A stretch of 29,258 bases of DNA, taken from IMG/VR virus record IMGVR_UViG_3300006749_000073, positions 1 through 29,258 of that record. One strand, written 5' to 3'. Of the stretch, positions 4,398 to 26,131 are shown piece after piece. The notes below the pieces were generated by a model, which saw nothing but the letters and a program-made list of their open reading frames with translations, was not told the origin of the DNA and made no database searches. Source of the stretch: a virus. The translations under genes were made by a program, and so were the position numbers. The stretch's first letter is position 1. Each line of letters starts with the position of its first letter.

Positions 4398-4451
4398 AGG
4401 GGTCGTTACTGACACTGTTCGTAAGAACTCACAGTGTCTGTAACTCCCCCT
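4398..4451. promoter_or_regulatory. Long three-segment hairpin
   Basis: Three paired blocks stack: AGGGG/CCCCT, GTTAC/GTAAC and GACACTGT/ACAGTGTC. They are separated by symmetric mismatches (TC opposite TC, and T opposite T), giving 18 pairs over 54 bases. Read on the plus strand, the tip can close further as TTC-GTAA-GAA with a GNRA-type tetraloop. It fills the gap between the leftward genes at 4463 and 4356. No T tract follows, so a processing, stabilising or operator role is more likely than simple termination. Confidence 0.7.
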
Positions 4452-4462
4452 ATGTTGGTTGG

Positions 4463-4603
4463 TCAGTCCATCAACTCGTTGATGATGGCTTGCTGAAGGT
4501 CAGTTGAGAGTTCAAGGAACTCCGCATCATACCACAGGGTGGCAGGTGAGGGAGTCCAGAAGATTTCAAGCAAGGCTTGAACTTTGAGGGTTGAAGTATC
4601 CAT
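4463..4603 (-). CDS. Small hypothetical protein, first gene of leftward block (46 aa)
   Basis: A 46-residue helical, acidic protein beginning MDTSTLKVQALLEIFW and ending LQQAIINELMD. A longer in-frame start at 4702 exists, but the extra 33 residues look non-coding and would cross the candidate leftward promoter. The start at 4603 sits 10 bases after the repeated TCAAACTTCACA motif and about 35 bases after a TAnnTTTG element. It is probably the first product of leftward transcription. Function unknown. Confidence 0.6.
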   Translation of the reverse strand: MDTSTLKVQALLEIFWTPSPATLWYDAEFLELSTDLQQAIINELMD

Positions 4604-4613
4604 CGAAGATGAT

Positions 4614-4625
4614 TGTGAAGTTTGA
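4614..4625 (-). promoter_or_regulatory. Repeated early-gene 5' motif TCAAACTTCACA
   Basis: Exact copy of the 12-mer, 10 bases upstream of the start at 4603 and about 20 bases downstream of the candidate leftward -7 box, so it would lie within the transcript leader. Confidence 0.5.
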
Positions 4626-4643
4626 CTGGCAACATTGCCGCCA

Positions 4644-4675
4644 CAAAGGTAAAGGGCAGAACTGGCAAAATCCAA
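4644..4675 (-). promoter_or_regulatory. Candidate leftward early promoter
   Basis: On the minus strand, TTG (4675-4673) is followed after 21 bases by TACCTTTG (4651-4644). This matches the Bacteroidota TTG/TAnnTTTG pair, with spacing at the long end. A start site near 4640 would give a leader of about 35 nt before the first leftward gene. Confidence 0.5.
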
Positions 4676-4697
4676 CCCTCTTCTTACTGCGCGATTT

Positions 4698-4786
4698 TTC
4701 ACGCGTGAAGGGTACTTTAGTACCCCCTGCTAAAACAGGCGAAGAAGTGGCCTCGCGCCCAAGCATCATGCGGCGTATGTGCGAGG
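4698..4786. other. Cluster of adjacent hairpins
   Basis: Stems follow each other closely: the 12-bp palindrome TTCACGCGTGAA (4698-4709), GGGTAC-TTTA-GTACCC (4710-4725), CCTG-CTAAAA-CAGG (4726-4739), and CCTCGC/GCGAGG (4751-4786) enclosing GCAT-C-ATGC. This density, with no coding signal, suggests a structured RNA or a protein-DNA assembly site. It does not match an RNA family I know. Confidence 0.45.
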
Positions 4787-4952
4787 TTCGACGTTGTTAG
4801 TGTTAGTTGGTTGGGATAGTCAATAGCAAACCCTGCACGTTACTATATGTGGTCCCTTGGACTGCGCGTGGTAAGGCGTAGGGGTTTTGTCCCCCTGATG
4901 GAATTGTCAATACTTTCCAGGGATTTGGCAGGGCATTGGCCTTTCTCCTCCG

Positions 4953-4980
4953 TTGTTAGAACCCCTTGGGGTTCCAACAA
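4953..4980. other. GC-rich hairpin in control region
   Basis: TTGTT and AACAA flank GAACCCC-TT-GGGGTTC, giving 12 pairs with one A/C mismatch and a 2-base loop as drawn (4 bases once strained pairs open). Neither side carries a T tract, so a standard intrinsic terminator is not supported. Confidence 0.55.
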
Positions 4981-5001
4981 AGCTGAAAAGATGTGGCAAA
5001 G

Positions 5002-5016
5002 TTGACCAAAGGTCAA
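5002..5016. promoter_or_regulatory. Inverted repeat TTGACC-AAA-GGTCAA
   Basis: Two perfect 6-base half-sites with a 3-base spacer, typical of a dimeric repressor site. No regulator is identified. The winged-helix-like protein at 13603-14025 is one candidate, by inference only. Confidence 0.4.
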
Positions 5017-5202
5017 GGGGAGGGGGGTCTCACAGCGCATTTGTGTATGCAGGTGTAGACGTACATAGGTATATATAATCCCCACGGTGCGTATTTCTCC
5101 GCTTTTTTCCCAATGATCGTTCGCTCATCGACTTCGAGTGGGAGCATTAACCACAGCCTGATCAGATACTTACACCCTGTTGCCTCTAGTGGCTGTTCAG
5201 GG

Positions 5203-5233
5203 TTGACTTTTAAAATTTTCTAGTATAACTTTG
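5203..5233 (+). promoter_or_regulatory. Candidate rightward promoter P1
   Basis: TTG (5203-5205, within TTGAC) then 20 bases then TAACTTTG (5226-5233) fits the Bacteroidota consensus at both boxes. Transcription would start near 5237, leaving a leader of about 160 nt before the gene at 5398. Confidence 0.55.
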
Positions 5234-5271
5234 CTAAACTATTTAGAAGGTTGTCACTGTACAGATGGTTG

Positions 5272-5283
5272 TGTGTGCACACA
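5272..5283. promoter_or_regulatory. 12-bp palindrome TGTGTGCACACA
   Basis: A perfect palindrome between the two rightward promoter candidates, within the leader of P1. It is a possible operator. Confidence 0.35.
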
Positions 5284-5362
5284 AAGCTGATGCGCGTACT
5301 CTCGTGGGTAACAACTATTACTATAACGCATGGATAGCTGTGTTTTGTCCGTAACCAGGCTG

Positions 5363-5392
5363 TTGTAGTCCTCTGCAGAACGTTTATATTTG
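5363..5392 (+). promoter_or_regulatory. Rightward promoter P2, near-leaderless
   Basis: TTG (5363-5365), 19 bases, then TATATTTG (5385-5392): both boxes and the spacing match the Bacteroidota sigma-A consensus. The ATG of the following gene begins at 5398, only 5 bases after the box. With the usual start-site distance, the transcript would begin within about 2 nt of the start codon. Confidence 0.75.
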
Positions 5393-5397
5393 CAGGT

Positions 5398-7308
5398 ATG
5401 AGATCTAAAGTCAAGAGAAAGCGTGGTTTGCAGCCCATCAAGAGGTATGAGCATGGTGGGCCACATGATGTTCTTGGAAATCCTATCCCACCAGCATCCA
5501 GGGCTGACACCGCTAGGCTTGTAAGTGCGGGTCAGGCGCAGATGCAGGAGCTTTTAGATCAAGGATATATTCCTTTTGGTGATTCAGCCATTAAAAACAC
5601 TGACACCAGAACAGATTTCGTTAGGGCTGACAGAGGATTCTTTGCAGATGACAGCATACTTCTAGGTGAGATTGAAGATGCCATGCTTGAAAAGCCTTGG
5701 CTTGCGTACAAGATGTACCCTCCTGGATATTCTGCATTGGTTGCAGATGATCTGGACTTCAGCAGAGGCTTCTTTTCAAAGTATGCTAGGAAGGTAGAGA
5801 AGTTTGTTGAAGACAATCAAAGGAAATACTTTAGAGATCGCCCATTTAGTCAACTTAAAGAAAGTCTAGAAGAACTCTTAGAGAATAAAGATCAGGGCTC
5901 TTTCTACAGAGTAACGCAAAATTTAAACAGATTTGTAGATCTAGCCAAGCAGTTTCCTGGGAGAAACGACAGTATGCTTTATACAGAGAGCATAAAAGAT
6001 GCTGTTGGTGATATTAGATCTTACGATCAAAAGCTAGAACGACTTAATGCAGTTCAAGATTTTGCTGAGATCCCCGTTTTCCCATTGGACGACGAGGGCA
6101 ACAGAAGAAGACAGACTGTAGAAGAAGAGTACGGGAGGCCTATTGACAGCTCTCCTGCGAAATTTGGAGGCACAAGATCTAAAGAAGATGCTCGATTCTA
6201 CAGAGAGATTAACAGATCCAAAAATCCAAATCCATTTTATGCTGCTATAGGTACAGCTGATCCAGATGCAATTGATTTAGATGAAGTAGAGGATCTGCTT
6301 TCACAAGGATATGGCCCACCCGCTGTTGTTGGTCCAGGAGATGCTTTCTTGGGTTCTGGAATGACAACTCTTGACCAGGCTGGAGCTAATATCACCAATA
6401 TGGGTAAGAGCGCATACAATATGATTTTTGGTACTCCAGCTCAAGTAATAGAGGAAGATGCGGGAGATCTTGGGAAGAATATAACCGTTGTGCCAGGCAC
6501 GCAAGTAAACTATGTGGATGTCCCTAAAGGTAAAGTGAGTAAGTTCAGCAACATCTACCCCACCCAGGCCAGGGATACAAGAATCCAGAAGGTCACTTTC
6601 AACCCCGTGACAGATCAGTTTGAGCCAGTAGAAGGTAGGTTTTACTTAGATAGAGAGTCTGAAGGCACTGGAGCTGTTCGAAGAGACGACTTGGTAAAGA
6701 CTCTATTTAATTACGATATTACTCCTGCTAGAAAATTAAAATTCTACAATGAAGAGCTTGGTGATGTTGTGTCCATCTTTGCATACGACTCACCAGAAAT
6801 GCTTAAGGCGGCTGGTCTGAAAAGAAGCGCTTACGATATTGCGAAGTATGGGGATACCCCACAGGAAACCAGGCAAGAGACAACAGGTCGATTCAATTAC
6901 ATGGCTCCAGGTTCGTCAGCTTCAGTCACGACTCCAGAACGCAGAAAACCACAAAATTTAAAATCCTTGAAGGCCAGACCTGCTGGCATGAATGTCGTCA
7001 AGAATAGAGATCTGATTCCCACATCTCCTATTCAGATGCCAGTAGGTAGAGTTCCTATTCAAATTGGTGCGCTTGCTCAATCGCAAAGAGGAGCAAGACA
7101 GGGTGGTCAGAGGCTGGATAGAGAATACTATTACGATCCAATCAAAAGGCAATACAGAGAACGAGAGGTGGATAGTGAGAGACTGGGCGGACCCGTATAT
7201 GGGACAACAAAACTGTTTGATGAAAAACAAACTCCTGGTGCCCCAGTGTATGGTGGTAGTTATGAGTTTTCCAAAGGGGGTAGACTAATAAAAAGAGTTA
7301 GATCGTAA
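5398..7308 (+). CDS. Putative virion structural or internal protein (636 aa)
   Basis: The first and one of the largest genes of the rightward block. It begins basic (MRSKVKRKRGLQPIKRYEHGG), has a helical, charged middle and a glycine- and Arg-rich C-terminal third, and ends SKGGRLIKRVRS. The short Lys/Tyr/Gly opening recurs in the product at 7771 (KKYKDGG), a style I associate with minor virion or internal proteins of marine phages. No enzymatic motif is visible. Placement with late genes and size suggest a virion component, but this is inference. It is driven by P2 and possibly P1, and is followed 16 bases later by another promoter-gene unit. Confidence 0.85.
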   Translation: MRSKVKRKRGLQPIKRYEHGGPHDVLGNPIPPASRADTARLVSAGQAQMQELLDQGYIPFGDSAIKNTDTRTDFVRADRGFFADDSILLGEIEDAMLEKPWLAYKMYPPGYSALVADDLDFSRGFFSKYARKVEKFVEDNQRKYFRDRPFSQLKESLEELLENKDQGSFYRVTQNLNRFVDLAKQFPGRNDSMLYTESIKDAVGDIRSYDQKLERLNAVQDFAEIPVFPLDDEGNRRRQTVEEEYGRPIDSSPAKFGGTRSKEDARFYREINRSKNPNPFYAAIGTADPDAIDLDEVEDLLSQGYGPPAVVGPGDAFLGSGMTTLDQAGANITNMGKSAYNMIFGTPAQVIEEDAGDLGKNITVVPGTQVNYVDVPKGKVSKFSNIYPTQARDTRIQKVTFNPVTDQFEPVEGRFYLDRESEGTGAVRRDDLVKTLFNYDITPARKLKFYNEELGDVVSIFAYDSPEMLKAAGLKRSAYDIAKYGDTPQETRQETTGRFNYMAPGSSASVTTPERRKPQNLKSLKARPAGMNVVKNRDLIPTSPIQMPVGRVPIQIGALAQSQRGARQGGQRLDREYYYDPIKRQYREREVDSERLGGPVYGTTKLFDEKQTPGAPVYGGSYEFSKGGRLIKRVRS

Positions 7309-7312
7309 TAGG

Positions 7313-7320
7313 TATATTTG
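7313..7320 (+). promoter_or_regulatory. TATATTTG -7 box, near-leaderless
   Basis: TATATTTG is followed by four bases and the ATG at 7325. No TTG is found at the expected upstream distance. The box overlaps no coding sequence, sitting in the 16-base gap after the 636-residue gene. Confidence 0.6.
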
Positions 7321-7324
7321 CCCT

Positions 7325-7771
7325 ATGGCTACACTTACAGTTACAATACAAGAAGAACTTACCATCAACGGTAAGGATAGAGGTAACACCAATACGATCT
7401 CTCTTTCTTCTGTGAGTGAGGTGTACAGCAGGGTTCTTACTGTAGACAATACAGAACAGACTGTACTGCAGTTTCAGGCAACGAGGCCCGCAGGCGGGAC
7501 GCTCACCTTTGCAACAATGCAGTACTTGAGGATCACAAACCTTGATGCATCAAATACTGTTGACCTTCGCATTCAAGACACCTCCAACACAAAAGAATAC
7601 TTTGTTCGTATTGCTGCTTCTGAATCTTTCATCTTGTTTCTTGATAAAATGGATGCAGACGCTACTGCTGGAACTGGTATAGCATTGACTCAGATTGAGT
7701 TGATCTCAGCTGAAGCCACAGGAACAAGTAGCGAGACCGCTGACATTGAGATCTTTGCAGTTGCAACCTAA
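7325..7771 (+). CDS. Beta-rich small virion-type protein (148 aa)
   Basis: A 148-residue, Thr/Ser/Ala-rich protein of alternating strands, beginning MATLTVTIQEELTINGKDRG. The core pattern, YLRITNLDAS followed by a strand, then ESFILFLDKMDA, then ADIEIFAVAT at the end, is shared in order with the products at 25739 and 26131 (LYIKN...GDFALIPWNGD...VEYLLIFEA). The three look like distant paralogues. A capsid-decoration or small fibre-like virion role is likely but inferred. It ends in an overlapping ATG (TAATG) with the next gene and has its own near-leaderless promoter. Confidence 0.85.
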   Translation: MATLTVTIQEELTINGKDRGNTNTISLSSVSEVYSRVLTVDNTEQTVLQFQATRPAGGTLTFATMQYLRITNLDASNTVDLRIQDTSNTKEYFVRIAASESFILFLDKMDADATAGTGIALTQIELISAEATGTSSETADIEIFAVAT

Positions 7772-8169
7772 TGCCTACAGTAAAAAAATATAAGGATGGA
7801 GGTGAGGGTCCAGGCGGCCCTTTCTCTATGACCAAAGAAGAAGAGGACAAGGCAACAGCTGATGTGCTCAAGGGTGACAAGAAGTTTGTCAAGAAGGCTA
7901 AGAAGGACGAAAAAAGAACTGGGCGTCTCATTAAAAGAAAAGGCGGTGGAGCTGAAGGATTGGGTAAACTTCAGGATCAGCTTCAGGCCCGCGCAAAAAG
8001 AAAGCGCAAGAAAGAGGGGAGGCAACAGAAAAGACAAAACAGAAGATCAGCAAGACAGCTAGGTCGTCAACTCATGGCTAAGCGCGTGGGTAAGGCCCTT
8101 GGCCGTGGTAACTCTATATCTGCTAAAGAAGCTGGCTGCCAGGGTGCTGGTTGCGGCGCATACGAATAA
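7771..8169 (+). CDS. Lys/Arg-rich basic protein (132 aa)
   Basis: A 132-residue, very basic protein opening MPTVKKYKDGGEGPGG, with a Lys/Arg-rich helical centre (RKRKKEGRQQKRQNRR) and a Cys pair near the end (CQGAGCGAYE). The basic helix suggests binding to DNA or to the packaged genome; the Cys pair is too little for a zinc call. Its ATG overlaps the stop of the preceding gene (TAATG), so translation is likely coupled. Exact function unknown. Confidence 0.8.
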   Translation: MPTVKKYKDGGEGPGGPFSMTKEEEDKATADVLKGDKKFVKKAKKDEKRTGRLIKRKGGGAEGLGKLQDQLQARAKRKRKKEGRQQKRQNRRSARQLGRQLMAKRVGKALGRGNSISAKEAGCQGAGCGAYE

Positions 8170-8173
8170 GACT

Positions 8174-8485
8174 ATGGAACTTAAAAAGAAAGATGAAAAC
8201 GGAGGGTTGACCAATCGTCAGGTTAGAAAAAACTCCAGGTTTCAAAACAAAGCTGCTAGAGATGCTGCCATTGTAACGCGAGGTGCAAAAGATTCAAAGG
8301 ATCTTATGAAAAACCTCAGTCAGTACGATGAGAAGAAAGACAAAAGATCCATTGCAAAGCAGATGATTAAAGCTGGGGCTATTGCGTTGGGCGGTGTTGC
8401 CCTTAGTAACCTAAAGTATCCTTCTGATGCGAGTGGAATGACCATGGGTGAGTACATCAAAGAGCTCCGCAGAATAAATCGTTGA
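8174..8485 (+). CDS. Basic hypothetical protein with hydrophobic segment (103 aa)
   Basis: A 103-residue protein beginning MELKKKDENGGLTNRQ. It is charged and helical, with one short hydrophobic stretch near residues 69-83 (AGAIALGGVALSNL) that could be a membrane or interface helix, and ends MGEYIKELRRINR. The frame extends upstream to 8099, but the start at 8174 is chosen because it lies 4 bases after the previous stop. It directly precedes the lysis-type peptidase, so a role near lysis or the virion is possible but unproven. Confidence 0.7.
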   Translation: MELKKKDENGGLTNRQVRKNSRFQNKAARDAAIVTRGAKDSKDLMKNLSQYDEKKDKRSIAKQMIKAGAIALGGVALSNLKYPSDASGMTMGEYIKELRRINR

Positions 8486-8489
8486 AAAA

Positions 8490-8969
8490 GTGAAGCTGTC
8501 AAAAAATTTATCACTGTCAGAAGTGACCAAAAGCACTACGGCTAAACGCCTAGGCATAGACAATACACCAGATGAGTGGGTTACAGAGAATCTTAAAAAG
8601 GTTGCAGAGCATATTTTTCAACCTGTGCGCGAGCATTTCAAGTGTCCTATATTCGTTTCGAGCGGCTATCGCTCAGCGGAACTCAACAAGGCGTGTGGTG
8701 GTTCAAAGCGTAGTCAGCATGTGGAGGGTAGAGCATTCGATCTTGACGCAGACGTATTTGGACGTGTGTCGAACAGTAGCATATTCAACCACATACGAGA
8801 GAATCTACAGTTTGATCAGCTCATTTGGGAGTTTGGTGATGAAGACAATCCTGATTGGGTGCACGTCTCTTATGTTTATGATGGCGTTAATCGTGGCAGG
8901 TGCCTCAAAGCTCTTCGAGACGATGAAGGCAAAGTCTACTACGAAGTAATGTTTGGTAAATCACTCTAA
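8490..8969 (+). CDS. Peptidase M15-type endolysin or virion peptidase (159 aa)
   Basis: The sequence matches the zinc D-Ala-D-Ala carboxypeptidase-like fold used by many phage lysins (Peptidase_M15_3 type). The first motif is SSGYRSAELN, then SQHVEGRAFDLDA with likely zinc ligands H77 and D84, then QLIWE with E114 as possible catalytic residue, and DWVHVS with H125 as third ligand. The full domain fits in 159 residues, with no signal peptide and no separate cell-wall-binding domain. It would cleave peptide crosslinks in peptidoglycan, releasing progeny or aiding entry. The start is a GTG 4 bases after the previous stop; no ATG fits the N-terminus. Confidence 0.9.
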   Translation: MKLSKNLSLSEVTKSTTAKRLGIDNTPDEWVTENLKKVAEHIFQPVREHFKCPIFVSSGYRSAELNKACGGSKRSQHVEGRAFDLDADVFGRVSNSSIFNHIRENLQFDQLIWEFGDEDNPDWVHVSYVYDGVNRGRCLKALRDDEGKVYYEVMFGKSL

Positions 8970-8972
8970 GGC

Positions 8973-11234
8973 ATGGCTCTATACGACGACGCATCATTCA
9001 TCTTCTTAGCCTCTGCAGCTGCTGGGCAGGAAAGAAAAGACGCTAGTAAGGTCTACAATGTAAAGCCAGCACCTATTGCCAGCAGTACAAACGCGCAGGA
9101 TTTATCTACCTTCACTATAACTAACGTATCAAACGCGGCTAACTCTATCTCAGTTTCAGGAGGGGTAGCAACTTTTGCGGGGGATGGAACTGAGTTTACG
9201 CACCTCGATAAAGCGTCAGTATTTGAAGCGAACAAAAAATACAAAGTAGTTGCTACGGTAGAGATTACTTCAGGAGCAATAAAGTTTCAAGATGGTATCA
9301 CGGATGCAAAGATTGGTGTAGCAACTGTATCAGGGAAATATGCTTTCTATTTTACTTCAGCTTCAAGCGGTGCTTTTTCGAGATTACGCATTGCCAGAAA
9401 AGACGGTTCCGCAGCATTTAACTTTACTGTATCTGATGTGTCTGTCTCTGAAGTTGATGTGTTACCTGCAGACTTCGACATCAGCAGAGACGCCAACCTC
9501 GATGCTACTCGTGTAGGCCCTGCTGGGTTGATCGAGAAGGGGAGGGAGAACCTGATCTTACAGTCTAATGCTTTTACTACTACGTGGAGCACTTCTAACA
9601 GCCCCAATATTACCTCTGGTCAGCTAGGATACGATGGAAGTTTAAATGCTTGGAAAATTGAACTGACTGCAAACTTTGGTCAGATACTCCAAACTTCTTT
9701 GTCAGTGCCTACTATTAGCACTTTAAGCATTTTTGTAAAGGCTGGAACAGCTGGATTTGTGAGACTTCGTATTGACGCGGACACAAATGCTATTGCAGAC
9801 TTTGATCTTTCTGACGGTAGCGTAGCTCATACTGAAGGAAACATTATTGCCACTAAAGCTGATAGTTTTGGTGATGGATGGTTTAGAGTTCAGATGACTA
9901 GTACAACAGCGTCTGGAAGTGTCGTCAGGATTTACCCTGCTGTTGCAGCAAACGACTTGAGTGGAACAAGCGGCTTCATCTATGTTCAGGACTCTCAGCT
10001 AGAAGTTGGCCTCGTAGCCACTGACGTCATCACCACTGGAGCTGCTGCAGCCACAGCTGGCATCAAAGAAGATGAACCACGCTTTGACTACCCTCTTGCT
10101 GGTGGTGCCCCTGCTTTGTTGATAGAGCCTGAGAGACAGAACCTCATTACAGTTTCAGAGTACTTTGGAGGATCTGGGTGGGATGACAATGGCTCTGGCG
10201 TCACAGTTGTAACTAATCATGCCGTGTCTCCAGAGGGTGTTAAGAACGCCGCTAAGCTTATTATTGACAATGCAGTTAGCTCAGGCGCAGAATTTAGAAC
10301 TGCCTCCGCTGTATCTGTTACTTCTGGAAAGGTTTATGCGTTTAGCATTTTCGCTAAAGCAGACGGGTTCGATCAAGTGCAGCTGGATGTGTTTGATAGT
10401 AAGTTTGGTGGCACTAATACACATGCAACCCTTAGTGGTGATGGATCAATTACTTCTTCAGGAGCCGACACAACAGCGTCTAGTATTGAAAACTATGGCA
10501 ATGGTTGGTATAGAATTATTCTGATTGGCACTTGCATTTCATCAGGAACAAGTGATTTTATTCTTAGACTTCAAGTAAACGGAATAAACGGCACAGGTGA
10601 CGGCTCTAAAGGTATTCTTATCTATGGTGCTCAGGCTGAAGAAGGTCCTTCTGCCAACTCTTACATCCCTTGTCACGAGGCTTCTGCTACGAGAACCACA
10701 GACGATGTAGCTGCGCTTGACACCAGCGGTTTCTCTTTTGGAACCACCTGTACGATCTTTTTTGAAGGATCTATTGGACAATTCAACCCCACTGCATCAT
10801 CTACCATACCTATAACGATGTTTGCTTCGCATGCATCCCCTAATAATTCTGAGCGCTATGTTCTTTTTGCAAGCACCTTTAGTAGCGGAACTTACACTCT
10901 TACCTCTCGTCACGACCATAATGGCAATACTGTTGGGGTAAGCAAAAGTGGACTTACAGAGGGTGCTAAGGTAAAGGTAGCTGCTGTATTTAATGGCACA
11001 TCTCAGAAGTTCTTTGTCAATGGAGCCTTAGCAGGCACAAACACTCACGTTGCTGCAAGTCTCTTTGAATCTCTTGATCTTTCTGGATACGCTCCCAACA
11101 AAAACCACACAGTTGGTTCTGTTATGCTTTTCGATTCTGCTATAAGCGATGTTGATGCTTACGTTCTTACTGACACAAGCTATGAATCGTACAGCGAAGC
11201 TGCAGACTCATTAAATTACAATCAACATGGCTAA
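8973..11234 (+). CDS. Large tail fibre/adhesin, paralogue A (753 aa)
   Basis: A Ser/Thr/Gly/Ala-rich beta protein with two similar modules, each introduced by a short signature: GLIEKGRENL near residue 185 and LLIEPERQNL near 381. Each module then carries SPEGVKNAAKL- or GNGWYRI-type strands typical of carbohydrate-binding jelly-roll domains in phage fibres. After GDGSKGILIYGAQ near 542 a concanavalin/LamG-like region follows (about 575-753). The first ~170 residues have no counterpart in the neighbouring paralogue and may attach to the virion. It starts 3 bases after the peptidase stop and overlaps the next gene by 8 bases. Likely role: receptor binding on host surface glycans. Confidence 0.85.
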   Translation: MALYDDASFIFLASAAAGQERKDASKVYNVKPAPIASSTNAQDLSTFTITNVSNAANSISVSGGVATFAGDGTEFTHLDKASVFEANKKYKVVATVEITSGAIKFQDGITDAKIGVATVSGKYAFYFTSASSGAFSRLRIARKDGSAAFNFTVSDVSVSEVDVLPADFDISRDANLDATRVGPAGLIEKGRENLILQSNAFTTTWSTSNSPNITSGQLGYDGSLNAWKIELTANFGQILQTSLSVPTISTLSIFVKAGTAGFVRLRIDADTNAIADFDLSDGSVAHTEGNIIATKADSFGDGWFRVQMTSTTASGSVVRIYPAVAANDLSGTSGFIYVQDSQLEVGLVATDVITTGAAAATAGIKEDEPRFDYPLAGGAPALLIEPERQNLITVSEYFGGSGWDDNGSGVTVVTNHAVSPEGVKNAAKLIIDNAVSSGAEFRTASAVSVTSGKVYAFSIFAKADGFDQVQLDVFDSKFGGTNTHATLSGDGSITSSGADTTASSIENYGNGWYRIILIGTCISSGTSDFILRLQVNGINGTGDGSKGILIYGAQAEEGPSANSYIPCHEASATRTTDDVAALDTSGFSFGTTCTIFFEGSIGQFNPTASSTIPITMFASHASPNNSERYVLFASTFSSGTYTLTSRHDHNGNTVGVSKSGLTEGAKVKVAAVFNGTSQKFFVNGALAGTNTHVAASLFESLDLSGYAPNKNHTVGSVMLFDSAISDVDAYVLTDTSYESYSEAADSLNYNQHG

Positions 11235-13086
11235 ACCATCAATCGTTATTGGCGACGGGAAGTTCGCAACGAAAGACACCAAGTTCCTCGCTCATGCTCA
11301 GGGGGATAGCTCTAGCAGGTTTGTAGCCCGTGAGCTTACTTACGATAGGGGATCTAATGTTACAGCCACAAGGGTTCTACCTAACGGTCTGATCGAGAAA
11401 GGAAGAGAAAACCTATTCACGCATTCCAACACGTTTTCTAACGACAGCAGTTGGTCTAAGAACAATCTATCAGTATCTGCTTCAGGCGATGCTTTTGACG
11501 TTACAGATGATGCGTCAACTGGGAGCCATTATTTATTTTTCTCAGGTACGACACCTAACTCGAAAGTATTAACTGCTAGTATTGAAGCCAAGGCTGGGAG
11601 TGTAAACTTCTTGGTCATTAGATTAGGAGGGTTTAATTACGCCTTTTTCAATGTCTCTAATGGAACCCTTGCAAATATCCCTGCAGCCTATATTGATGCT
11701 AAAATTGAAGCCACATCAGACGGTTTTTATCGATGCTCTGTTTCAATTCAAACACCAGCTTCAGGCTCTGCATCCGTGTTTTTCCCTACAGATAACTCTT
11801 CATCTGTATCCTACACGGGCACAAACAGTGTTGCTCTAACCGTCAAAAATGCTCAACTTGAATTGGGGCTTGCAGCAACAACCTATATCGAATCAGGAGC
11901 TTCTACAGGCAAAGCTGGTATCCTTGAAGATCAGGCTAGAGTAGATTACTTAAGCAACTCTAATGGCTATCTCTTGCTTGAGCCCACGAGACAGAATAAA
12001 CAGGCTTTAAGTGAAAATTTTTCAGCATATAATGCAACAAGAGCCTCTGTAACCGCAAACGCTGACACCTCCCCAGAGGGCCTTAAAAATGCCGCCAAGC
12101 TTGTAGAGGACATAACTGCTGGAAACACCCATAAGATGGTCCCCCCTGCGTCAGACCCATTCACTTCAGGAACTACATACTCTATTTCTGTCTTTGCCAA
12201 AGCGGCAGGAAGGACTCAGTTTAAGCTGCAGGCTGGAACTACTGCTGTAGCTCCTTACAATGCAGTATTCAACCTTACTGGAGAATCAAGTCCAACCGCC
12301 CCCACCAACAATGATGAGGGCACTGCCTCTATGGAGTATTATGGCAATGGTTGGTATAGGTGTAAAATTGAGGGATTTGAAGCGGATCAGAGCGCCAGTA
12401 CTACTCCAAATTTTTACTTGCAATCTTCAGGTAACGCATCCTATGATGGAGACGGAACAAGCGGAATACTGTTTTATGGTTTTCAGCTAGAAGAGGGTTC
12501 TTTTGCTACTTCTTACATACCTACTCATGGCGCTGCCGCAAGCAGAGCAGCAGAAGGACTCCCTGCAAGCACTGGTTCAGTTATAGACATGAGTAGCTTC
12601 ATGAAGGGTGATGATGTCACGCTTGTTGTTGAGCTTGCTGAAAACTCATCTACTGTAAGAGACGCCAGCAACGCGAGCATTAGACTCAGTAATGGTAATT
12701 CTCAGAGTGGTTCTATAAATATATATAGAGCTAGTGCTTCAGCCTCGACGTATAGAGCAGTGTTTTTTGGTACGTCTCCTGATAGTTTTAGTTCAGGTGT
12801 TAGCAGTGGCGCTGTGATAATCGATGGTTCTGCACCAAAGATTGCTATAAGCAGAGATAGATCAGCAGGCACATTTACTATATATGTAAATGGGTCTGCT
12901 CTTGCTAATTCAGATGGATTAACTGATAGCAACGGACAATTTACAAACTCCAACTTTGATGTTACAATGGATGATTTGCAAATCACAGGAGTGGGAAGCA
13001 TATTAAAACTTTCAAAGCTCAAGCTGTTTGATTCAGTATTGACAAATTCAGGGGATAACAACGAAATGGCAAGTGAAACAACATGA
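11227..13086 (+). CDS. Large tail fibre/adhesin, paralogue B (619 aa)
   Basis: A shorter paralogue of the preceding gene. The same landmarks appear in the same order: GLIEKGRENL near residue 53, LLLEPTRQN near 249, SPEGLKNAAKL, GNGWYRCKI, GDGTSGILFYGFQ near 409 and SYIPTHGAA, then a C-terminal LamG-like region. It lacks the N-terminal ~130 residues of paralogue A. Sequences between landmarks have diverged strongly, as expected for receptor-binding proteins under diversifying pressure. Tandem overlapping copies suggest either a heteromeric fibre or two specificities. It overlaps the next gene by 4 bases. Confidence 0.85.
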   Translation: MAKPSIVIGDGKFATKDTKFLAHAQGDSSSRFVARELTYDRGSNVTATRVLPNGLIEKGRENLFTHSNTFSNDSSWSKNNLSVSASGDAFDVTDDASTGSHYLFFSGTTPNSKVLTASIEAKAGSVNFLVIRLGGFNYAFFNVSNGTLANIPAAYIDAKIEATSDGFYRCSVSIQTPASGSASVFFPTDNSSSVSYTGTNSVALTVKNAQLELGLAATTYIESGASTGKAGILEDQARVDYLSNSNGYLLLEPTRQNKQALSENFSAYNATRASVTANADTSPEGLKNAAKLVEDITAGNTHKMVPPASDPFTSGTTYSISVFAKAAGRTQFKLQAGTTAVAPYNAVFNLTGESSPTAPTNNDEGTASMEYYGNGWYRCKIEGFEADQSASTTPNFYLQSSGNASYDGDGTSGILFYGFQLEEGSFATSYIPTHGAAASRAAEGLPASTGSVIDMSSFMKGDDVTLVVELAENSSTVRDASNASIRLSNGNSQSGSINIYRASASASTYRAVFFGTSPDSFSSGVSSGAVIIDGSAPKIAISRDRSAGTFTIYVNGSALANSDGLTDSNGQFTNSNFDVTMDDLQITGVGSILKLSKLKLFDSVLTNSGDNNEMASETT

Positions 13087-13448
13087 GAATATTTAGAAAA
13101 TACGAGTTTGGCAGCCAGTCTGCTGCTACAACAAAGATCAATGCCTTGGGTCTTGACGACGAAGGCAATCCAACCCACGGTCATTCGATTGCAAGGCTGG
13201 GTCATATCGTGACAACACAAGGGGAGTATGATGCAGAAGGCAATGAAACTAAGGCCCCTGTATGCTCAGAGAACTACCACGTCGATGTCTTGTGGAAAGA
13301 CGAAGCATCTTCAGACTGGGATAGTCAGATGGTGTGGTGCATGCCTATGGGGGTGCATACCTTTGGATCGTCCAGCGCCAATGCAGAGTATATTGCGAAG
13401 TGTAAGGAGCTACACCCAGAGTGGTTCCCAGAACCTGAAGAAGACTAA
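13083..13448 (+). CDS. Conserved phage protein next to fibre genes (121 aa)
   Basis: A 121-residue protein opening MRIFRKYEFGSQSAATTKIN, followed by a short His/Gly segment, HVDVLWKDEASSDW and a loop with GVHTFGSSSANAEYI. I recognise this arrangement from small proteins encoded directly after tail-fibre genes in several marine phages. It may be a fibre-associated or chaperone-like protein, though that is not established. It starts inside the end of the fibre gene (ATGA), so translation is probably coupled. Confidence 0.85.
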   Translation: MRIFRKYEFGSQSAATTKINALGLDDEGNPTHGHSIARLGHIVTTQGEYDAEGNETKAPVCSENYHVDVLWKDEASSDWDSQMVWCMPMGVHTFGSSSANAEYIAKCKELHPEWFPEPEED

Positions 13449-13450
13449 CT

Positions 13451-13606
13451 ATGCTTGGGCTTAGCACAACAATAGCATCATCATCTTATGTTTCTCGATT
13501 AAGGTCAGACGACCTTGTCTCAGCGTTTGCGTCTAGGATTACCGCTGACGATGGCGAAGTAGAGAACACAAACGATCTTGAAAAAGACCTAAGAAAACTT
13601 ATCTAA
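13451..13606 (+). CDS. Small hypothetical protein (51 aa)
   Basis: A 51-residue protein beginning MLGLSTTIASSSYVSRLRS and ending EKDLRKLI. It starts 2 bases after the previous stop. Its stop codon overlaps the stop of the leftward regulator gene by 3 bases, so two transcription units converge here with no separating terminator. Function unknown. Confidence 0.7.
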   Translation: MLGLSTTIASSSYVSRLRSDDLVSAFASRITADDGEVENTNDLEKDLRKLI

Positions 13607-14025
13607 GACTCTAGATCTCTGTAAAGAGTTTGCACTAGCAGTCTTCCTCTTTGTGTAAGGGCGTATCTAACCCTGTAGTTGTATTTTGTTTCCTCTCTAA
13701 ACAAGTGATCTTCTCTGGTGTCTGAGGGGGTCATTCTGTCGAAGTGTTTGTACAATATTCCTTCTTTTACAAGGGGGTACACATACTCTACACCAATCTT
13801 ATTTGAGGAGATACCAAAGTCTTCTGACGCATACTTTAGAGTAAAGAACTCTAAGTCGTAAGCCCACAGCATAAACATAATTTCTTTTTGAAATATGCTG
13901 TGTTTTTCTTTTGCGCTAAGCAGCTCTCTTCTTAGATATTTGAGGTAGTTACGTTTTACGTATCTTTGATTAAGCCTCGAAAACTCTCTGAAGAGTTTTT
14001 TCTTAGATACTTTGCTTTTGGGCAT
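13603..14025 (-). CDS. Winged-helix-like protein, possible regulator (140 aa)
   Basis: The only leftward gene in the late half. The N-terminus is very basic (MPKSKVSKKKLFREF). The centre reads as helices followed by a recognition-helix-like SSNKIGVEYVYPLVKEGIL and a strand-turn-strand wing (YNYRVRYALTQRGRLLVQ). This matches a MarR/PadR-type winged helix in outline. It probably binds DNA and may control late transcription, but no operator is proven. Its start is 4 bases from the rightward start at 14030, so its promoter must lie within that gene (candidate TATCTTTG, 14047-14054). Confidence 0.75.
   Translation of the reverse strand: MPKSKVSKKKLFREFSRLNQRYVKRNYLKYLRRELLSAKEKHSIFQKEIMFMLWAYDLEFFTLKYASEDFGISSNKIGVEYVYPLVKEGILYKHFDRMTPSDTREDHLFREETKYNYRVRYALTQRGRLLVQTLYRDLES
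13940..13968 (+). promoter_or_regulatory. Candidate rightward promoter inside the regulator gene
   Basis: TTG (13940-13942), 18 bases, then TATCTTTG (13961-13968) fits both boxes. It would drive the gene at 14030 with a leader of about 55 nt that passes through an AAAACTCT-CTGA-AGAGTTTT hairpin followed by a T run. Confidence 0.45.
13980..14001 (+). terminator. Possible terminator or attenuator hairpin
   Basis: AAAACTCT, a 4-base loop CTGA, AGAGTTTT and then more T form an 8-bp stem with a T run on the plus strand. The stem is AT-rich at its base and lies antisense within the regulator's codons, so it may be coincidental. If real, it would limit rightward read-through or attenuate the transcript starting near 13973. 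Confidence 0.35.
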
Positions 14026-14029
14026 TCAA

Positions 14030-14335
14030 ATGGATTTACAGAACTACAAAGATATGGAGAGAGAAGGATTTTTGTTTGAGGTTCAGCAGATCGCTTTGGA
14101 AATAGAATCTTTGATTGACAAGTATGACGTGAGAGAAGATGTCATGTCTTTGATGATTATAGGTCTAATTGATGAGATGGAAGACACTCATCAACTAAAG
14201 GCTGTGTATGGATATAATCTTAGAGATAGAAGTGAGCTCGAAGAATTGGTTACATTTGCTCAAGACTCCTTTAAAGGAAATGATGAGCCAGATATTGATG
14301 ATCTAATCAAAGGTCTTGGCATAAGTTTAAATTAA
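14030..14335 (+). CDS. Acidic helical hypothetical protein (101 aa)
   Basis: A 101-residue acidic protein beginning MDLQNYKDMEREGFLFEVQQ, mostly helical with a short aromatic loop near the middle (YGYNLRD). A TTG start six codons upstream is possible, but the ATG at 14030 is better placed. It is divergent from the winged-helix-like gene, with only 4 bases between the starts. The next gene's ATG begins directly after its stop. No family recognised. Confidence 0.75.
   Translation: MDLQNYKDMEREGFLFEVQQIALEIESLIDKYDVREDVMSLMIIGLIDEMEDTHQLKAVYGYNLRDRSELEELVTFAQDSFKGNDEPDIDDLIKGLGISLN
14047..14054 (-). promoter_or_regulatory. Candidate -7 box for the leftward regulator
   Basis: On the minus strand this reads TATCTTTG, 21 bases upstream of the regulator's start, which would give a leader of roughly 15 nt. 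No TTG is found at the usual distance. Confidence 0.35.
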
Positions 14336-14575
14336 ATGGAAGGTGTAATCAGAAAAATCATCATAGGTCGTGATCCTAAGGACGCTATGGCCTACTATGT
14401 AGGCATGCGAGCTGGTAGCAGCAGGGTGAGCGCGATTGTTAATGATGAAGCTTTTTTATACAGGCATGGTAAGAACAGATATCTTGTATATCTTCAAGAA
14501 GAAGATGGAAGCAATGTTTTATGGAAGTCTGTAGATGACATGCCATGTATCATTGAATACGATCTAAACTTTTGA
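14336..14575 (+). CDS. Small beta-rich hypothetical protein (79 aa)
   Basis: A 79-residue protein that looks like a small beta barrel: MEGVIRKIIIGRDPKDAMAY, then VSAIVNDEAFL, RYLVYLQEEDGSNVLWKSV and CIIEYDLNF. It starts immediately after the previous stop and ends one base before the next gene. The strand pattern is consistent with a small adaptor or nucleic-acid-binding fold, but no specific family is recognised. Confidence 0.75.
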   Translation: MEGVIRKIIIGRDPKDAMAYYVGMRAGSSRVSAIVNDEAFLYRHGKNRYLVYLQEEDGSNVLWKSVDDMPCIIEYDLNF

Positions 14576-14576
14576 T

Positions 14577-14909
14577 ATGGCTACAAGGACTTATCCTGAT
14601 GGAACTGTTATCCCAGCATCTTTGCCTGCGGCGTATAAACGCGCAAAGAATAAGAATCAATACTGCGGTAATTGTATGTATTGGATGGGTAACTACTGCA
14701 CAAGATGGGAGGCTAGAGTAAAATCAGGATATGTGTGTGCGTCTTGGGCTCCCAAACAGGCCATGTCTATTACTCCTGCCGCTGCGCCTGAAGTAGATGT
14801 AGCCCCACCAACTGTAGCCCCACCAACTGTTCCATCTCCAACTCCTGTTCCTGCGCAGCCTCGTCAGACTACAGTGCGCAGAACTTCAAGGAGATCCTAT
14901 GGATACTAA
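14577..14909 (+). CDS. Cys4 protein with Pro-rich tail (110 aa)
   Basis: Residues 30-54 hold four Cys spaced CxxC-x7-C-x12-C (C30, C33, C41, C54), with Trp and Tyr between them and CASWAP at the end. This resembles a family of small phage proteins with a metal-binding or high-potential-iron-sulfur-like Cys cluster. Zinc or an iron-sulfur centre would both fit. Residues 66-100 are Pro/Ala/Val/Thr repeats (APPTVAPPTV), a disordered tether, followed by a basic Arg-rich end. It overlaps the next gene by 11 bases. Function unknown. Confidence 0.8.
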   Translation: MATRTYPDGTVIPASLPAAYKRAKNKNQYCGNCMYWMGNYCTRWEARVKSGYVCASWAPKQAMSITPAAAPEVDVAPPTVAPPTVPSPTPVPAQPRQTTVRRTSRRSYGY

Positions 14910-15054
14910 AAAATCCAAGGGTGTTGGTGACACTGTAGAAAAATTCACTCAAAGAACAGGGCTAAAACGCCTGGTCGAAAAGGTCTCAAAAGACTGCGGA
15001 TGCAGTGAGAGACGAGATAAATTAAATAAAATGTTTCCCTACAAAAATCAATGA
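14899..15054 (+). CDS. Small conserved phage protein with CGC motif (51 aa)
   Basis: A 51-residue protein reading MDTKKSKGVGDTVEKFTQ, then TGLKRLVEKVSKDCGCSERR and KLNKMFPYKN. This is a familiar small phage protein: helix, a CGC motif followed by RR, and the FPYK ending recur across unrelated phages. Two Cys could form half of a shared metal site. Function unknown. It starts within the end of the Cys4 gene and ends in an ATGA overlap with the next gene. Confidence 0.8.
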   Translation: MDTKKSKGVGDTVEKFTQRTGLKRLVEKVSKDCGCSERRDKLNKMFPYKNQ

Positions 15055-15635
15055 AATCTTTAAACATGTTTATCGTTGAGCTGGACAGGCCAATCAACGA
15101 TACAATCTCCACCAAAAGTGGAATTGAGTTATACATCGACACTCGATATGAGGGCGGTGAGTTCAAATACAGAGTTACTGACGGACCAGTCATAGCTACA
15201 CCAGCCAAGTACAAAACTCCAGTCAAGAAAGGTGATAGGCTATACTTCCATCACCTTGTTGTGATGCAAGGGGGTCAAAAGCTGACAGGCATGGATAATA
15301 GCTACTTTGTCAAGTATGATCCAGAACACGCTATAAATAATCAGGCTATTGCTTACAAAGACAAGAAAGGAAAAATACATCCACTTAATGGTTGGAGCTT
15401 GCTGTCTGCTGTTGAAGAAGAGGAAAGAGAAGACGGCACTATTGAAGTAGTGTCTTTGAAAGAAGAGCTCCCAACCAAGGGTGTCGTTGCTTTTGATTCA
15501 AAAGAACTGAAGTCAATAGGAGTAAAGAAAGGAGATGTTGTTGGGTTCAAAGAAAACAGAGACTATCGCATCAAGATTGATGGGAAGGAGTACTACAGAA
15601 CTCGCACTGAAGACCTTTTATACGTAGAGCAATGA
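15051..15635 (+). CDS. GroES-like co-chaperonin (194 aa)
   Basis: Two similar beta-barrel-type parts. The first has VKKGDRLYFHHLV near residues 58-70. The second, residues 142-194, has GVVAFDSKEL, then VKKGDVVGFKEN, then YRIKIDGKEYYRTRTEDLLYV. The latter closely follows the GroES/Cpn10 layout (GDxVxF, strand, IDGxEY, then a DLL-type end). Such proteins pair with host GroEL, as T4 gp31 does, to fold large capsid proteins. Double-length fused barrels are less usual than single 95-residue GroES. Adjacent cistrons overlap at both ends by 4 bases. Confidence 0.7.
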   Translation: MKSLNMFIVELDRPINDTISTKSGIELYIDTRYEGGEFKYRVTDGPVIATPAKYKTPVKKGDRLYFHHLVVMQGGQKLTGMDNSYFVKYDPEHAINNQAIAYKDKKGKIHPLNGWSLLSAVEEEEREDGTIEVVSLKEELPTKGVVAFDSKELKSIGVKKGDVVGFKENRDYRIKIDGKEYYRTRTEDLLYVEQ

Positions 15636-15901: not shown

Positions 15902-15917
15902 TGCTGCTCAGCGCTTG

Positions 15918-16163: not shown

Positions 16164-16245
16164 TTGGCAGGCAATAGTCTGGCAAAAGAACAAAACTGAT
16201 TTTAAATTCTGGGAAGAATCCTGGAATGATGAGTTTGAGGACTGA
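16102..16245 (+). CDS. Small acidic hypothetical protein (47 aa)
   Basis: A 47-residue protein beginning MDQSSKQKTTAEASLKDILND, with three Trp in the second half (WQAIVWQ, FWEESWND) and an acidic end. It overlaps the upstream gene by 62 bases, more than is usual here. Its stop shares a base with the HNH start codon (TGATG), which supports translation. Function unknown. Confidence 0.55.
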   Translation: MDQSSKQKTTAEASLKDILNDWQAIVWQKNKTDFKFWEESWNDEFED

Positions 16246-16678: not shown

Positions 16679-16681
16679 CAC

Positions 16682-16755: not shown

Positions 16756-16774
16756 CTAAATTAAATTATATCAA

Positions 16775-19001: not shown

Positions 19002-19006
19002 TTACT

Positions 19007-19014
19007 TATATTTG
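19007..19014 (+). promoter_or_regulatory. TATATTTG -7 box before the portal gene
   Basis: TATATTTG lies 27 bases before the portal ATG, giving a leader of roughly 25 nt. No TTG is seen at the usual distance. The box contains a TTG that could be mistaken for a start codon. Confidence 0.55.
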
Positions 19015-19041
19015 CAAAAGGTAAAATGGAATCCCTATCTA

Positions 19042-21477
19042 ATGCAGGACACAAAAGGTACGAGTAAAGGGTTCCCAAATCCTCTTGCCTCCCCAGAAGA
19101 AAAAGCGTCAAAAGCTTACGGCACTCAATATGCAAAAGCTATTGATTCGCAGTGGGGAAGGATGACGGATGTTGGGAGTCTTGTAGGGAAAAGAAATAGA
19201 ATATTTGCCAGAAGCAGAGACTATGCTATTGGCACACAGGACACAAATATCTACAAGCAGCTACTTAACAGTCTTGACCCCAACGGTGGAGACGGAAGCT
19301 TGATGAATCTTGATTATACGCCAGTACCTATTCTGCCTAAGTTTGTTCGTATTGTAGCCAACAAGATTCTTGCAAAGAAGATGTATCCCAACCTAGAGGC
19401 CGTTGACCCTCTGTCTACATCTCAAAAAAACCAGAACAAAAGATTTCTGAAGTCTCAGGTTGCTAACAAAGATTTGTTGATGCAATTCAAAGAGCAGACT
19501 GGTCAGTCTTTGGGACAAGATCCTGAAACCTTGCCTGATTCAGCTGAAGAGGTTGATATTCTGTACGGAGACAACATTAAGACAGGAGGGGAGATATCTG
19601 CTCAGCTTGCAACAAATCTCACTCTTGAGTGGAATCAGTTTGATGATTCTGTTTTTAGAAGATCTGTAAACGACCTGGTTGCATTAGGTATGGCAGTTGT
19701 TAAAAGGTCAAATGACCCAAACATTGGCATCAAAACAGACTATGTAGATCCCTCTTTGTTTATACATAGCTATACAGAAGACCCAGGTTTTAATGATCTA
19801 ACTTACGCGGGTCACATTAAAAAAGTCTCTATTGCTGAATTGCGTAGACTAGCAGGTGATGAGCTTTCTGAAGAAGATCTAGATAAGATTGCCAACAAGG
19901 TTAAAGGCACCAATGGCAACAACGCCAACAAATACAGCACAAAAAAATACGATCAAGACTTGAATACCATGACATACGGTTATGATGAATATACCGTCAA
20001 TGTTTTGGACTTTGAGTTTTTGACTGTTGAGACCATGCACTTTGAAGAGAAAGAAAATCGCTACGGCAATTCTAATTTTTTCTACAAGGGATTTTCTTAC
20101 AAAGCACCTAAGGGATCTGTCTATGAAAGACGTCCCCAGTGTATGGATATACAGGTTGTTTACCAAGGCAGCTATATTGTTGATTGTGGCATGCTGTATG
20201 GGTATGGCAAAAAGAAAAACATTCCCAAGACAATTCACGACTTGTCTAAAGCCACGTTGTCATACTCAGTTTCTGCAGTGAATCTGAAGGATATGATGCC
20301 TAAGTCCATGGTGGATAGCTGCACTGGTTTTGCTGACATGCTTCAGCTCACTCACTTGAAGATTCAGCAGGCAATTGCAAAAGCAAAGCCAGATGGATTG
20401 GTGATTGATATTGAGGGGCTGGAGAATGTACAGCTTGGAAAAGGAGGGGAGCTTCAGCCACTTGATCTTCATGATATCTATGAACAGACTGGTGTATTCT
20501 ACTACAGAAGTAAGAATCCAGAGGGGGGATTCCAGAACCCTCCTGTTCGAGAGATTGGCAACAGCATTAGAAACATCAATGAGTTGATTGGATTGTACAA
20601 TCACTACTTGAGGATGATTCGCGATACAACTGGTGTCAATGAGGCTGTTGATGCCTCAACACCTAAAGGCGATGCTCTTGTGGGTGTGCAACAGCAAGCT
20701 ATTCAGGCAAGCAACAATGCAACATATGACATTACCAATGCTTCTTTAATACTCTTCAAAAAAGTTTGTCAAGACATTATCAAGTGCATTCAGATTTTGC
20801 CAGAAGAGTCTGTAATCTACGGAGCATACAAGAGGTCTTTAGGTGACGAAAACATGGACGCCTTGTCTTCATTTGCAGAGTTGCCTATGTACAACTTTGG
20901 GGTTCTTGTCACAAAAGACATGGAGGATAAAGACAAAGCTTATTTGGAGCAGAATATTCAGATGGCTTTGCAACAAAAAGAAATTGATCTTGAAGACGCT
21001 ATTGCTGTACGAGGGCTTACGGATGTAAATCAAGCTGAGAGACTTCTCATTGTAAAACGTAAGAAGAGAATGCAAAGAGTTTCAGCGATGGCTGAGCAAA
21101 ATTCTCAGCGTCAAAAACAAGAGGCTCTTCAAGCGGCTCAAGCAGCTTCTCAGCTCAAGCTTCAAGAAGCTCAGGTAGAAGCTCAGCTTGATATGGAAAA
21201 GATGAAGCTGAAGAACGAGATGGAGACTTCGCTTGAGACAATGAGGCATCAGTTTAGGCAAGAGATTGAAATGATCAAAGCCAAAGCTACTCTTGGGTTT
21301 AGAGAAGAGGATCAAGCGTTTAGAGAGAAGCTTGAAGTTCTTAAAGAGGATAGAAAAGATGATCGCCTTGAATCTCAAACAGCGGATCAGAGCAAGCTTA
21401 TATCTCAAAGACAAGGCAAGAGAGAGGAGGTTGCAAAAGAGACAAAAGGATTGGTAGATAAAATATTTGAAGACTGA
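19042..21477 (+). CDS. Portal protein (811 aa)
   Basis: Large protein with a portal-type layout. The helical N-terminal part (NIYKQLLNSLDPNGG, then PKFVRIVANKILAKKM) leads into a wing-like mixed region and a stem-like region near QTGVFYYRSKNPEGG and NSIRNINELIGLYNHYLRMI. The last ~135 residues are a Gln/Lys/Glu-rich coiled coil (EALQAAQAASQLKLQEAQ). Portals form the ring through which terminase pumps DNA. The ATG at 19042 is chosen over a TTG at 19012, which lies inside a promoter box. The 811-residue length is near the upper end for portals, mainly because of the coiled-coil tail. It overlaps the next gene by one base. Confidence 0.9.
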   Translation: MQDTKGTSKGFPNPLASPEEKASKAYGTQYAKAIDSQWGRMTDVGSLVGKRNRIFARSRDYAIGTQDTNIYKQLLNSLDPNGGDGSLMNLDYTPVPILPKFVRIVANKILAKKMYPNLEAVDPLSTSQKNQNKRFLKSQVANKDLLMQFKEQTGQSLGQDPETLPDSAEEVDILYGDNIKTGGEISAQLATNLTLEWNQFDDSVFRRSVNDLVALGMAVVKRSNDPNIGIKTDYVDPSLFIHSYTEDPGFNDLTYAGHIKKVSIAELRRLAGDELSEEDLDKIANKVKGTNGNNANKYSTKKYDQDLNTMTYGYDEYTVNVLDFEFLTVETMHFEEKENRYGNSNFFYKGFSYKAPKGSVYERRPQCMDIQVVYQGSYIVDCGMLYGYGKKKNIPKTIHDLSKATLSYSVSAVNLKDMMPKSMVDSCTGFADMLQLTHLKIQQAIAKAKPDGLVIDIEGLENVQLGKGGELQPLDLHDIYEQTGVFYYRSKNPEGGFQNPPVREIGNSIRNINELIGLYNHYLRMIRDTTGVNEAVDASTPKGDALVGVQQQAIQASNNATYDITNASLILFKKVCQDIIKCIQILPEESVIYGAYKRSLGDENMDALSSFAELPMYNFGVLVTKDMEDKDKAYLEQNIQMALQQKEIDLEDAIAVRGLTDVNQAERLLIVKRKKRMQRVSAMAEQNSQRQKQEALQAAQAASQLKLQEAQVEAQLDMEKMKLKNEMETSLETMRHQFRQEIEMIKAKATLGFREEDQAFREKLEVLKEDRKDDRLESQTADQSKLISQRQGKREEVAKETKGLVDKIFED

Positions 21478-24747: not shown

Positions 24748-24755
24748 TATATTTG
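24748..24755 (+). promoter_or_regulatory. TATATTTG -7 box, near-leaderless
   Basis: TATATTTG is followed by 4 bases and the ATG at 24760. No TTG at the usual upstream distance. The box lies just after the previous stop codon. Confidence 0.6.
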
Positions 24756-24759
24756 TAAT

Positions 24760-25065
24760 ATGCCTACGGTAAAAAGAAAAGGAAAGATGCCCAAGAAGTT
24801 CTCCGTCAAAAGCGGGGACAAGTCTGCATCTGGAGGATTGACAGCCAAGGGCGTTAAAAGATACAGAGCTGCAAACCCTGGCAGCAAATTAAAAACTGCT
24901 GTAACTACCAAGCCATCAAAGCTTAAGGCAGGTAGTAAGTCAGCCAAGCGTCGCAAATCTTTTTGCGCTAGAATGAAAGGGATGAAGAAGAGACTTACCA
25001 GTGCAAAGACTGCAAGAGATCCAAACTCACGCATCAATAAGGCACTTAGAAAATGGAATTGCTAA
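24760..25065 (+). CDS. Small basic conserved phage protein (101 aa)
   Basis: A 101-residue, very basic protein: MPTVKRKGKMPKKFSVKSGD, then SASGGLTAKGVKRYRAANPG, and ending SFCARMKGMKKRLTSAKTAR with a C-terminal KWNC. The SFCARMxGMKKRLTSAKTARDPNSRINxALRKWNC ending is familiar from marine phages and is conserved across unrelated viruses, though its function is unknown. The high charge suggests nucleic-acid binding. The start at 24760 follows a promoter box by only 4 bases. An earlier frame extension from 24712 crosses that box and is not preferred. Confidence 0.85.
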   Translation: MPTVKRKGKMPKKFSVKSGDKSASGGLTAKGVKRYRAANPGSKLKTAVTTKPSKLKAGSKSAKRRKSFCARMKGMKKRLTSAKTARDPNSRINKALRKWNC

Positions 25066-25709: not shown

Positions 25710-25717
25710 TATATTTG
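25710..25717 (+). promoter_or_regulatory. TATATTTG -7 box before the beta-protein cluster
   Basis: TATATTTG lies 21 bases before the ATG at 25739, giving a leader of about 17 nt. No TTG is found at the expected distance. Confidence 0.55.
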
Positions 25718-25738: not shown

Positions 25739-26131
25739 ATGGCTACTACTACTGCATCAATTACCATTTCCAGTGGTGACCTCACTGGAGATGCCTTGTC
25801 TCTTAGCTCGACAGCAACGCTTACGAAAGCTGGCACAACTACTGGCTTGGATCAAACTACTGGCGTTGGACGTATTCTATATGGGTCTGCTGGTGTAAAC
25901 ACTTTGATTGCTCATGCTACTTATACAGCAGACAAGGCTCATAAGCTTTACATCAAGAATCCAAGCGGCACAGCTGGTGAGAACATCGTTATTACCTTTG
26001 CTTCTCAAGCTATTGGTCGTCTTTACGCTGGAGACTTTGCTCTTATCCCTTGGAATGGAGACACTGACATCAAAGTCACTACTAGTGACGCTAACATGGT
26101 TGTCGAGTATCTCTTGATCTTCGAAGCATAA
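25739..26131 (+). CDS. Beta-rich small virion-type protein (130 aa)
   Basis: A 130-residue, Thr/Ser/Ala-rich beta protein, beginning MATTTASITISSGDLTGDAL. Shared landmarks with the next gene and with 7325-7771 are the strand LYIKNPSG, a loop, then GDFALIPWNGDTDIKV and the end VVEYLLIFEA. A capsid-decoration or small virion-fibre role is likely; three copies suggest distinct positions on the virion. It overlaps the next ATG by one base. Confidence 0.85.
   Translation: MATTTASITISSGDLTGDALSLSSTATLTKAGTTTGLDQTTGVGRILYGSAGVNTLIAHATYTADKAHKLYIKNPSGTAGENIVITFASQAIGRLYAGDFALIPWNGDTDIKVTTSDANMVVEYLLIFEA

Follow-up and report, generated by a model that had tools for sequence, protein, structure and literature searches.

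Late genes and box copies in the window

Terminase, portal and capsid genes are encoded in the analyzed stretch of 29,258 nt (the window), a 29-kb virus record. In a near-identical 65-kb relative (G001, locus L007), the late arm is long and lies on one strand, and the opposite strand carries a shorter early arm. Relatives of the terminase (about 41-47% identity) and portal (24-32%) in phage collections and among isolates belong to phages of Flavobacterium, Cellulophaga, Tenacibaculum and Maribacter as well as to one environmental genome with no assigned host. Two terminase relatives come from MAGs, a closer one (68% identity) from a Bacteroidetes MAG and another from one labelled Maricaulis. 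Since the related phages infect these four genera and the closer terminase lies in a Bacteroidetes MAG, a host among the Bacteroidota is likely for this virus family, judging from sequence relationships.

Five copies of the box TATATTTG precede late genes in the window; the corresponding features, with start codons assigned from ORFs and homology, are as follows:

5363-5365 (+), TTG, N19 before the box at 5385; only this one of the five boxes has a -33-like TTG
5385..5392 (+), TATATTTG, candidate -7 box; spacer CAGGT (5 nt) to the ATG at 5398
5398..7308 (+), late gene, 636 aa; predicted leaderless or with a 1-nt leader
7313..7320 (+), TATATTTG box; spacer CCCT (4 nt) to the ATG at 7325
7325..7771 (+), late gene, 148 aa; predicted leaderless, protein conserved from M1
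19007..19014 (+), TATATTTG box of the portal gene, short-leader class; spacer 27 nt to 19042
19042..21477 (+), portal protein, start at 19042
24748..24755 (+), TATATTTG box; spacer TAAT (4 nt) to the ATG at 24760
24760..25065 (+), DUF6321 (PF19846) protein, 101 aa; predicted leaderless
25710..25717 (+), TATATTTG box, leadered class; spacer 21 nt
25739..26131 (+), late gene, 130 aa; short A-rich leader

The first-pass annotation had placed the box 4-5 bases before the ATG of three late genes. This distance stands with spacers of 5, 4 and 4 nt, but the positions given there for the element (5398, 7325 and 24760) are those of the ATGs, and the boxes start at 5385, 7313 and 24748. The two further copies at 19007 and 25710 do have short leaders as described, with spacers of 27 and 21 nt once the portal start is corrected to 19042; an ATG at 19026 was rejected as the portal start, being out of frame with the portal gene. 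In the protein encoded at 7325 the next Met after M1 does not occur before residue 65. Its orthologs are conserved from the first Met, and a further in-frame ATG within 30 codons was present only at codon 4 in two of them. The 636-aa protein of gene 5398 had no family match.

Enrichment and spacing of the box

All five TATATTTG matches in the window were located on the late (+) strand, each no more than 30 nt ahead of a gene start; positions that close (0-30 nt) make up 3.4% of the strand (p about 4e-8). Shuffled sequence contained a mean of 0.9 matches and reached five or more in one of 100 shuffles. The enrichment was confined to TATATTTG, as the degenerate pattern TAnnTTTG occurred 26 times versus 21 expected and was not over-represented. 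In 0.99 Mb of sequence from relatives, TATATTTG was found 222 times on the gene strand, which placed it at the top of 168 words of the same composition (next word 90, median 31, its own reverse complement 29).

Among 93 non-redundant TATATTTG sites, 78 were situated within 31 nt of a downstream ORF, including 30 at exactly 4 nt, four at 5 nt, none at 6-11 nt and 44 at 12-31 nt; a second mode was apparent at about 15-22 nt, near 19. The 4-nt peak had a binomial p of 5e-25, and none of the 167 other words exceeded four sites at this distance (N4). The variant TATCTTTG displayed the same peak (7/21). The one point in favor of a chance occurrence of TATATTTG in AT-rich sequence is the lack of enrichment of TAnnTTTG itself in the window. 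Conservation (see below) already refutes this explanation, and with the shuffles, the words of equal composition, the N4 peak and the binomial test also speaking against it, we rejected it with near certainty.

Counting boxes no more than 31 nt ahead of a start codon, the five long relatives had equal numbers of leaderless and leadered arrangements (18 each), nearly all on the late strand. The N4 arrangement reached about 39 sites per Mb in twelve related phage records. Forty Bacteroidota genomes related to the Bacteroidetes MAG contained 237 such sites versus 139 at N8, corresponding to about 2.6 per Mb and 1.7x the N8 control; host genes rarely place the box at the start codon in this way. 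No enrichment of the box pattern, with single sites only, was seen in relatives available in culture (Cellulophaga phi38:1 and phi19:3, Flavobacterium elemoA, Maribacter Panino, Tenacibaculum Gundel_1) or in one other genome (MW202828), and no N4 peak was present at the DUF6321 loci of diverse phages. At three sites in relatives (L004:12250, L037:6135 and L055:11276) the box is followed at N4 by a GTG with an in-frame ATG 15 nt (five codons) further on, which would fit a leaderless start at the GTG as well as a 19-nt leader before the ATG.

Conservation of box and spacing at individual genes

Comparison of orthologous upstream regions, the check proposed in the first-pass annotation, revealed that the 4-nt spacing is conserved. 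In all 12 close orthologs of gene 7325 (window included), TATATTTG or TATCTTTG lies exactly 4 nt before the ATG, even though these orthologs represent four mutually non-aligning upstream contexts. For gene 24760, all five boxed ortholog contexts had the 4-nt spacer, and the adaptor gene, which is located outside the window, was preceded by the box in 5/5 non-redundant contexts, four of them with 4-nt spacing. Leaderless genes are marked by a conserved promoter box about 12 nt before the start codon, and this arrangement was observed here both in the close 7325 orthologs and at the 30 of 93 family sites with a 4-nt spacer.

The expectation that related phages share the box was borne out for the portal gene, where it was kept in 80/80 relatives at 62-100% identity with varying spacers, and only in part for other genes. 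Across a wider set of 17 non-redundant contexts of gene 7325, the box was located at 4 nt in seven and at 12 nt in two and was absent from eight, mostly of lower identity, and 4/9 contexts of gene 24760 were without it. For gene 5398 the relatives found were all near-identical and provided a single independent context. Among other promoter-led genes, the box preceded the portal gene (18/18 non-redundant contexts), g24223 (7/7) and gene 25739 (14/16 ortholog contexts, spacers 18-31), while it was missing from the operon-internal genes encoding terminase (0/16), 21477 (0/26), 15051 (0/21) and the capsid protein MCP (0/9). With single exceptions, leader class mostly tracked the gene, with a leaderless arrangement at 7325, at 24760 and at the adaptor gene and a leadered one at portal, 25739 and g24223. 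The box architecture, leaderless or short-leader, tends to stay with the gene it serves.

Sequence context of the boxes

Many boxes in relatives directly follow intrinsic terminators (fold z scores of -3.2 to -5.5), a position expected of promoters because transcription must restart there. A terminator-like hairpin with a T-run was found no more than 60 nt upstream of 13/101 boxes versus 10/3000 random sites. In the leaderless class, a pyrimidine immediately preceded the ATG in 97% of cases.

Two alternative readings involve longer mRNAs. In one, the box is a promoter, yet translation proceeds mainly from longer read-through or polycistronic mRNAs and the leaderless end is minor. Four of the five window boxes do have an upstream stop codon only a few nt away, in a densely packed array of co-directional genes, a scan of 4400-20000 revealed no obvious terminator adjoining the window boxes, and read-through from upstream promoters could also yield leadered mRNA at terminator-free sites. 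The terminators directly ahead of many boxes in relatives argue against this reading, which moreover offers no reason for the exact 4-nt spacing and the empty gap at 6-11 nt, and we consider it improbable. In the other, TATATTTG is a translational element that signals to ribosomes from an upstream position in longer mRNAs, which would fit the fixed distance to the ATG in one class and the use of upstream A-rich signals by Bacteroidota (PMC6847099). The presence of the same box at 15-31 nt in the other class, its position after terminators and its identity to the sigma-A -7 consensus make this role very hard to sustain.

The first-pass annotation had invoked the bipartite Bacteroidota sigma-A promoter, and its TTG (-33) half did not hold. 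Only the box at 5385 among the five in the window has a TTG at N19, and in the family a -33 TTG was found at 3/82 sites versus 11.6% of random positions and was therefore not enriched. A classical -33/-7 promoter was accordingly rejected for all window boxes except 5385. The -33 element is not strictly defining for sigma-A promoters of this phylum either, because it is weak in F. johnsoniae as well (PMC6847099). Elsewhere in the window, two diverging promoter-like intergenic sites at 4651 (-) and 5226 (+) carry the full TTG-N20/21-TAMCTTTG and, unlike the late boxes, possess the -33; they are likely arm promoters. Both are also found in G001, and transcription from the site at 5226 would cover about 150 nt of non-coding DNA ahead of gene 5398.

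T4 late promoters (TATAAATA) are strict, single-element promoters that lack a -35. A comparable requirement for a phage factor, either an own sigma or a co-activator, would account for the strict TATATTTG and the missing -33. Consistent with this, the box tolerates less variation than the host TAHHTTTG, the likely arm promoters do carry the upstream TTG, and the relative G003 encodes a 289-aa sigma-A/RpoD-like protein (L194:10496-11365, (-)) with a full Sigma70_r4 domain and a best isolate-phage match of 43.5%. In a search of 23 records of relatives, no sigma homolog was found in the other 22, several of which are fragments and in which a very divergent sigma could escape detection. This lack of a gp55-like sigma in most of the phage family, together with a box that equals the host -7 consensus, sets the system apart from T4, and the weakness of the -33 in host sigma-A promoters (PMC6847099) also reduces the need for a phage factor. 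We regard such a factor as unlikely, though as a serious candidate.

Proposed late promoter and comparison with known systems

Our preferred reading, to which we assign a probability of roughly 0.8, is that TATATTTG constitutes the -7 box of late promoters that are read by the host primary sigma factor without a -33 element and that come in two leader architectures, including predicted leaderless mRNAs. A sigma of the Bacteroidota sigma-A type (box TAHHTTTG) would recognize the box, and RNA synthesis would start 4-5 nt past it. In F. johnsoniae, the -7 element spans -12 to -5, the TSS lies 4 or 5 nt after it and the -33 is weak (PMC6847099); together with the 4-nt spacer this places the predicted +1 on the A of the AUG. 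The earlier expectation of a 5' end at or near the start codon thus agrees, at the level of distances, with published promoters. In the leaderless class (box-N4-ATG), the A of AUG would be the first transcribed base and ribosomes would initiate on a 5'-terminal AUG, whereas short-leader mRNAs (box plus about 15-30 nt) would carry 10-25 nt of A-rich leader before the AUG. Between them, the two classes would start several late units on the late strand, in some cases right behind a terminator. The family places an invariant box exactly 4 bases before the start codon in about half of its promoter-led late genes, whose mRNAs should, as read from the sequence, begin at the first coding base.

Compared with Bacteroidota sigma-A promoters (-7 TAnnTTTG or TAHHTTTG), the box is identical in all five window copies, AT-rich DNA lies just upstream and the -33 is similarly weak (PMC6847099), with a TTG/TTTG present only at 5385 among the five boxes. 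The phage box differs in that its positions 3-4 are almost always TA, and in its leaders: those of the host have a mean length of 33 nt and few mRNAs lack one, with leaderless shares of 5.5% in F. psychrophilum (PMC9723704) and, including leaders under 10 nt, of 3.7% in B. theta (PMC7366714), while by sequence about half of the promoters with this box (18/36 in the five long relatives) are leaderless. The first-pass annotation had related leaderless late units to host ribosomes that do not rely on Shine-Dalgarno pairing. This explanation is insufficient alone because leaderless mRNAs are rare in these very hosts (3.7-5.5%).

Leaderless late phage transcripts are already known in kind, since most middle and late mRNA of Thermus phage phiYS40 is leaderless (PMC3594737) and a -10 box adjoining the ORF, giving leaderless mRNA with no need for a -35, is common in Deinococcus-Thermus (PMC12340547). 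Against the phiYS40 yardstick of most late transcripts being leaderless, the share predicted here is about half. This phage family resembles phiYS40 in its predicted leaderless late mRNAs and differs from it in the host phylum (leaderless genes being common in Deinococcus-Thermus), in the box and in showing no sign of altered IF2/IF3. The Deinococcus-Thermus arrangement likewise puts the promoter box right beside the ORF, but it concerns cellular genes with a TANNNT-type box; here the genes are those of a phage, the box is of the Bacteroidota kind and a leadered class exists as well. The literature searched, which leaves most subscription journals outside its coverage, contained no report of such promoters in Bacteroidota phages, of spacing exact to the base or of two leader classes.

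It is an open question how ribosomes of Bacteroidota locate start codons when Shine-Dalgarno pairing plays no part, and this virus family supplies natural pairs of genes, leaderless and leadered, under a common box that are suited to reporter tests. More tentatively, leader length may be a gene-specific control in a phylum with few leaderless mRNAs: late transcripts launched from one and the same box would be translated differently during infection depending on whether they are leaderless or have a short leader, perhaps via phage-altered host initiation factors or ribosomes; we hold this to be possible but on balance doubtful. The box and N4 rule can also be used to locate promoters and start codons in uncultured flavophages, and it corrects gene starts.

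Further features of the window

A phage-encoded GroES-like co-chaperonin (Cpn10) is located at 15051-15635. A 140-aa gene at 13603-14025 (-) runs antisense to the late array, is apparently retained in several relatives and had no Pfam or PHROGs match. Adjoining tRNA-Arg (16682-16756) is a tRNA-like element (16602-16678) that scored 27.1 bits against an Rfam tRNA threshold of 29 and was missed by ARAGORN; in relatives, similar 3' ends precede leaderless boxes. Several late proteins (window 5398, 7771, 8174, 25065 and others) share a basic N-terminus followed by Gly-Gly (RYEHGG, KYKDGG, KDENGG, KNKGG), possibly a processing or packaging signal.
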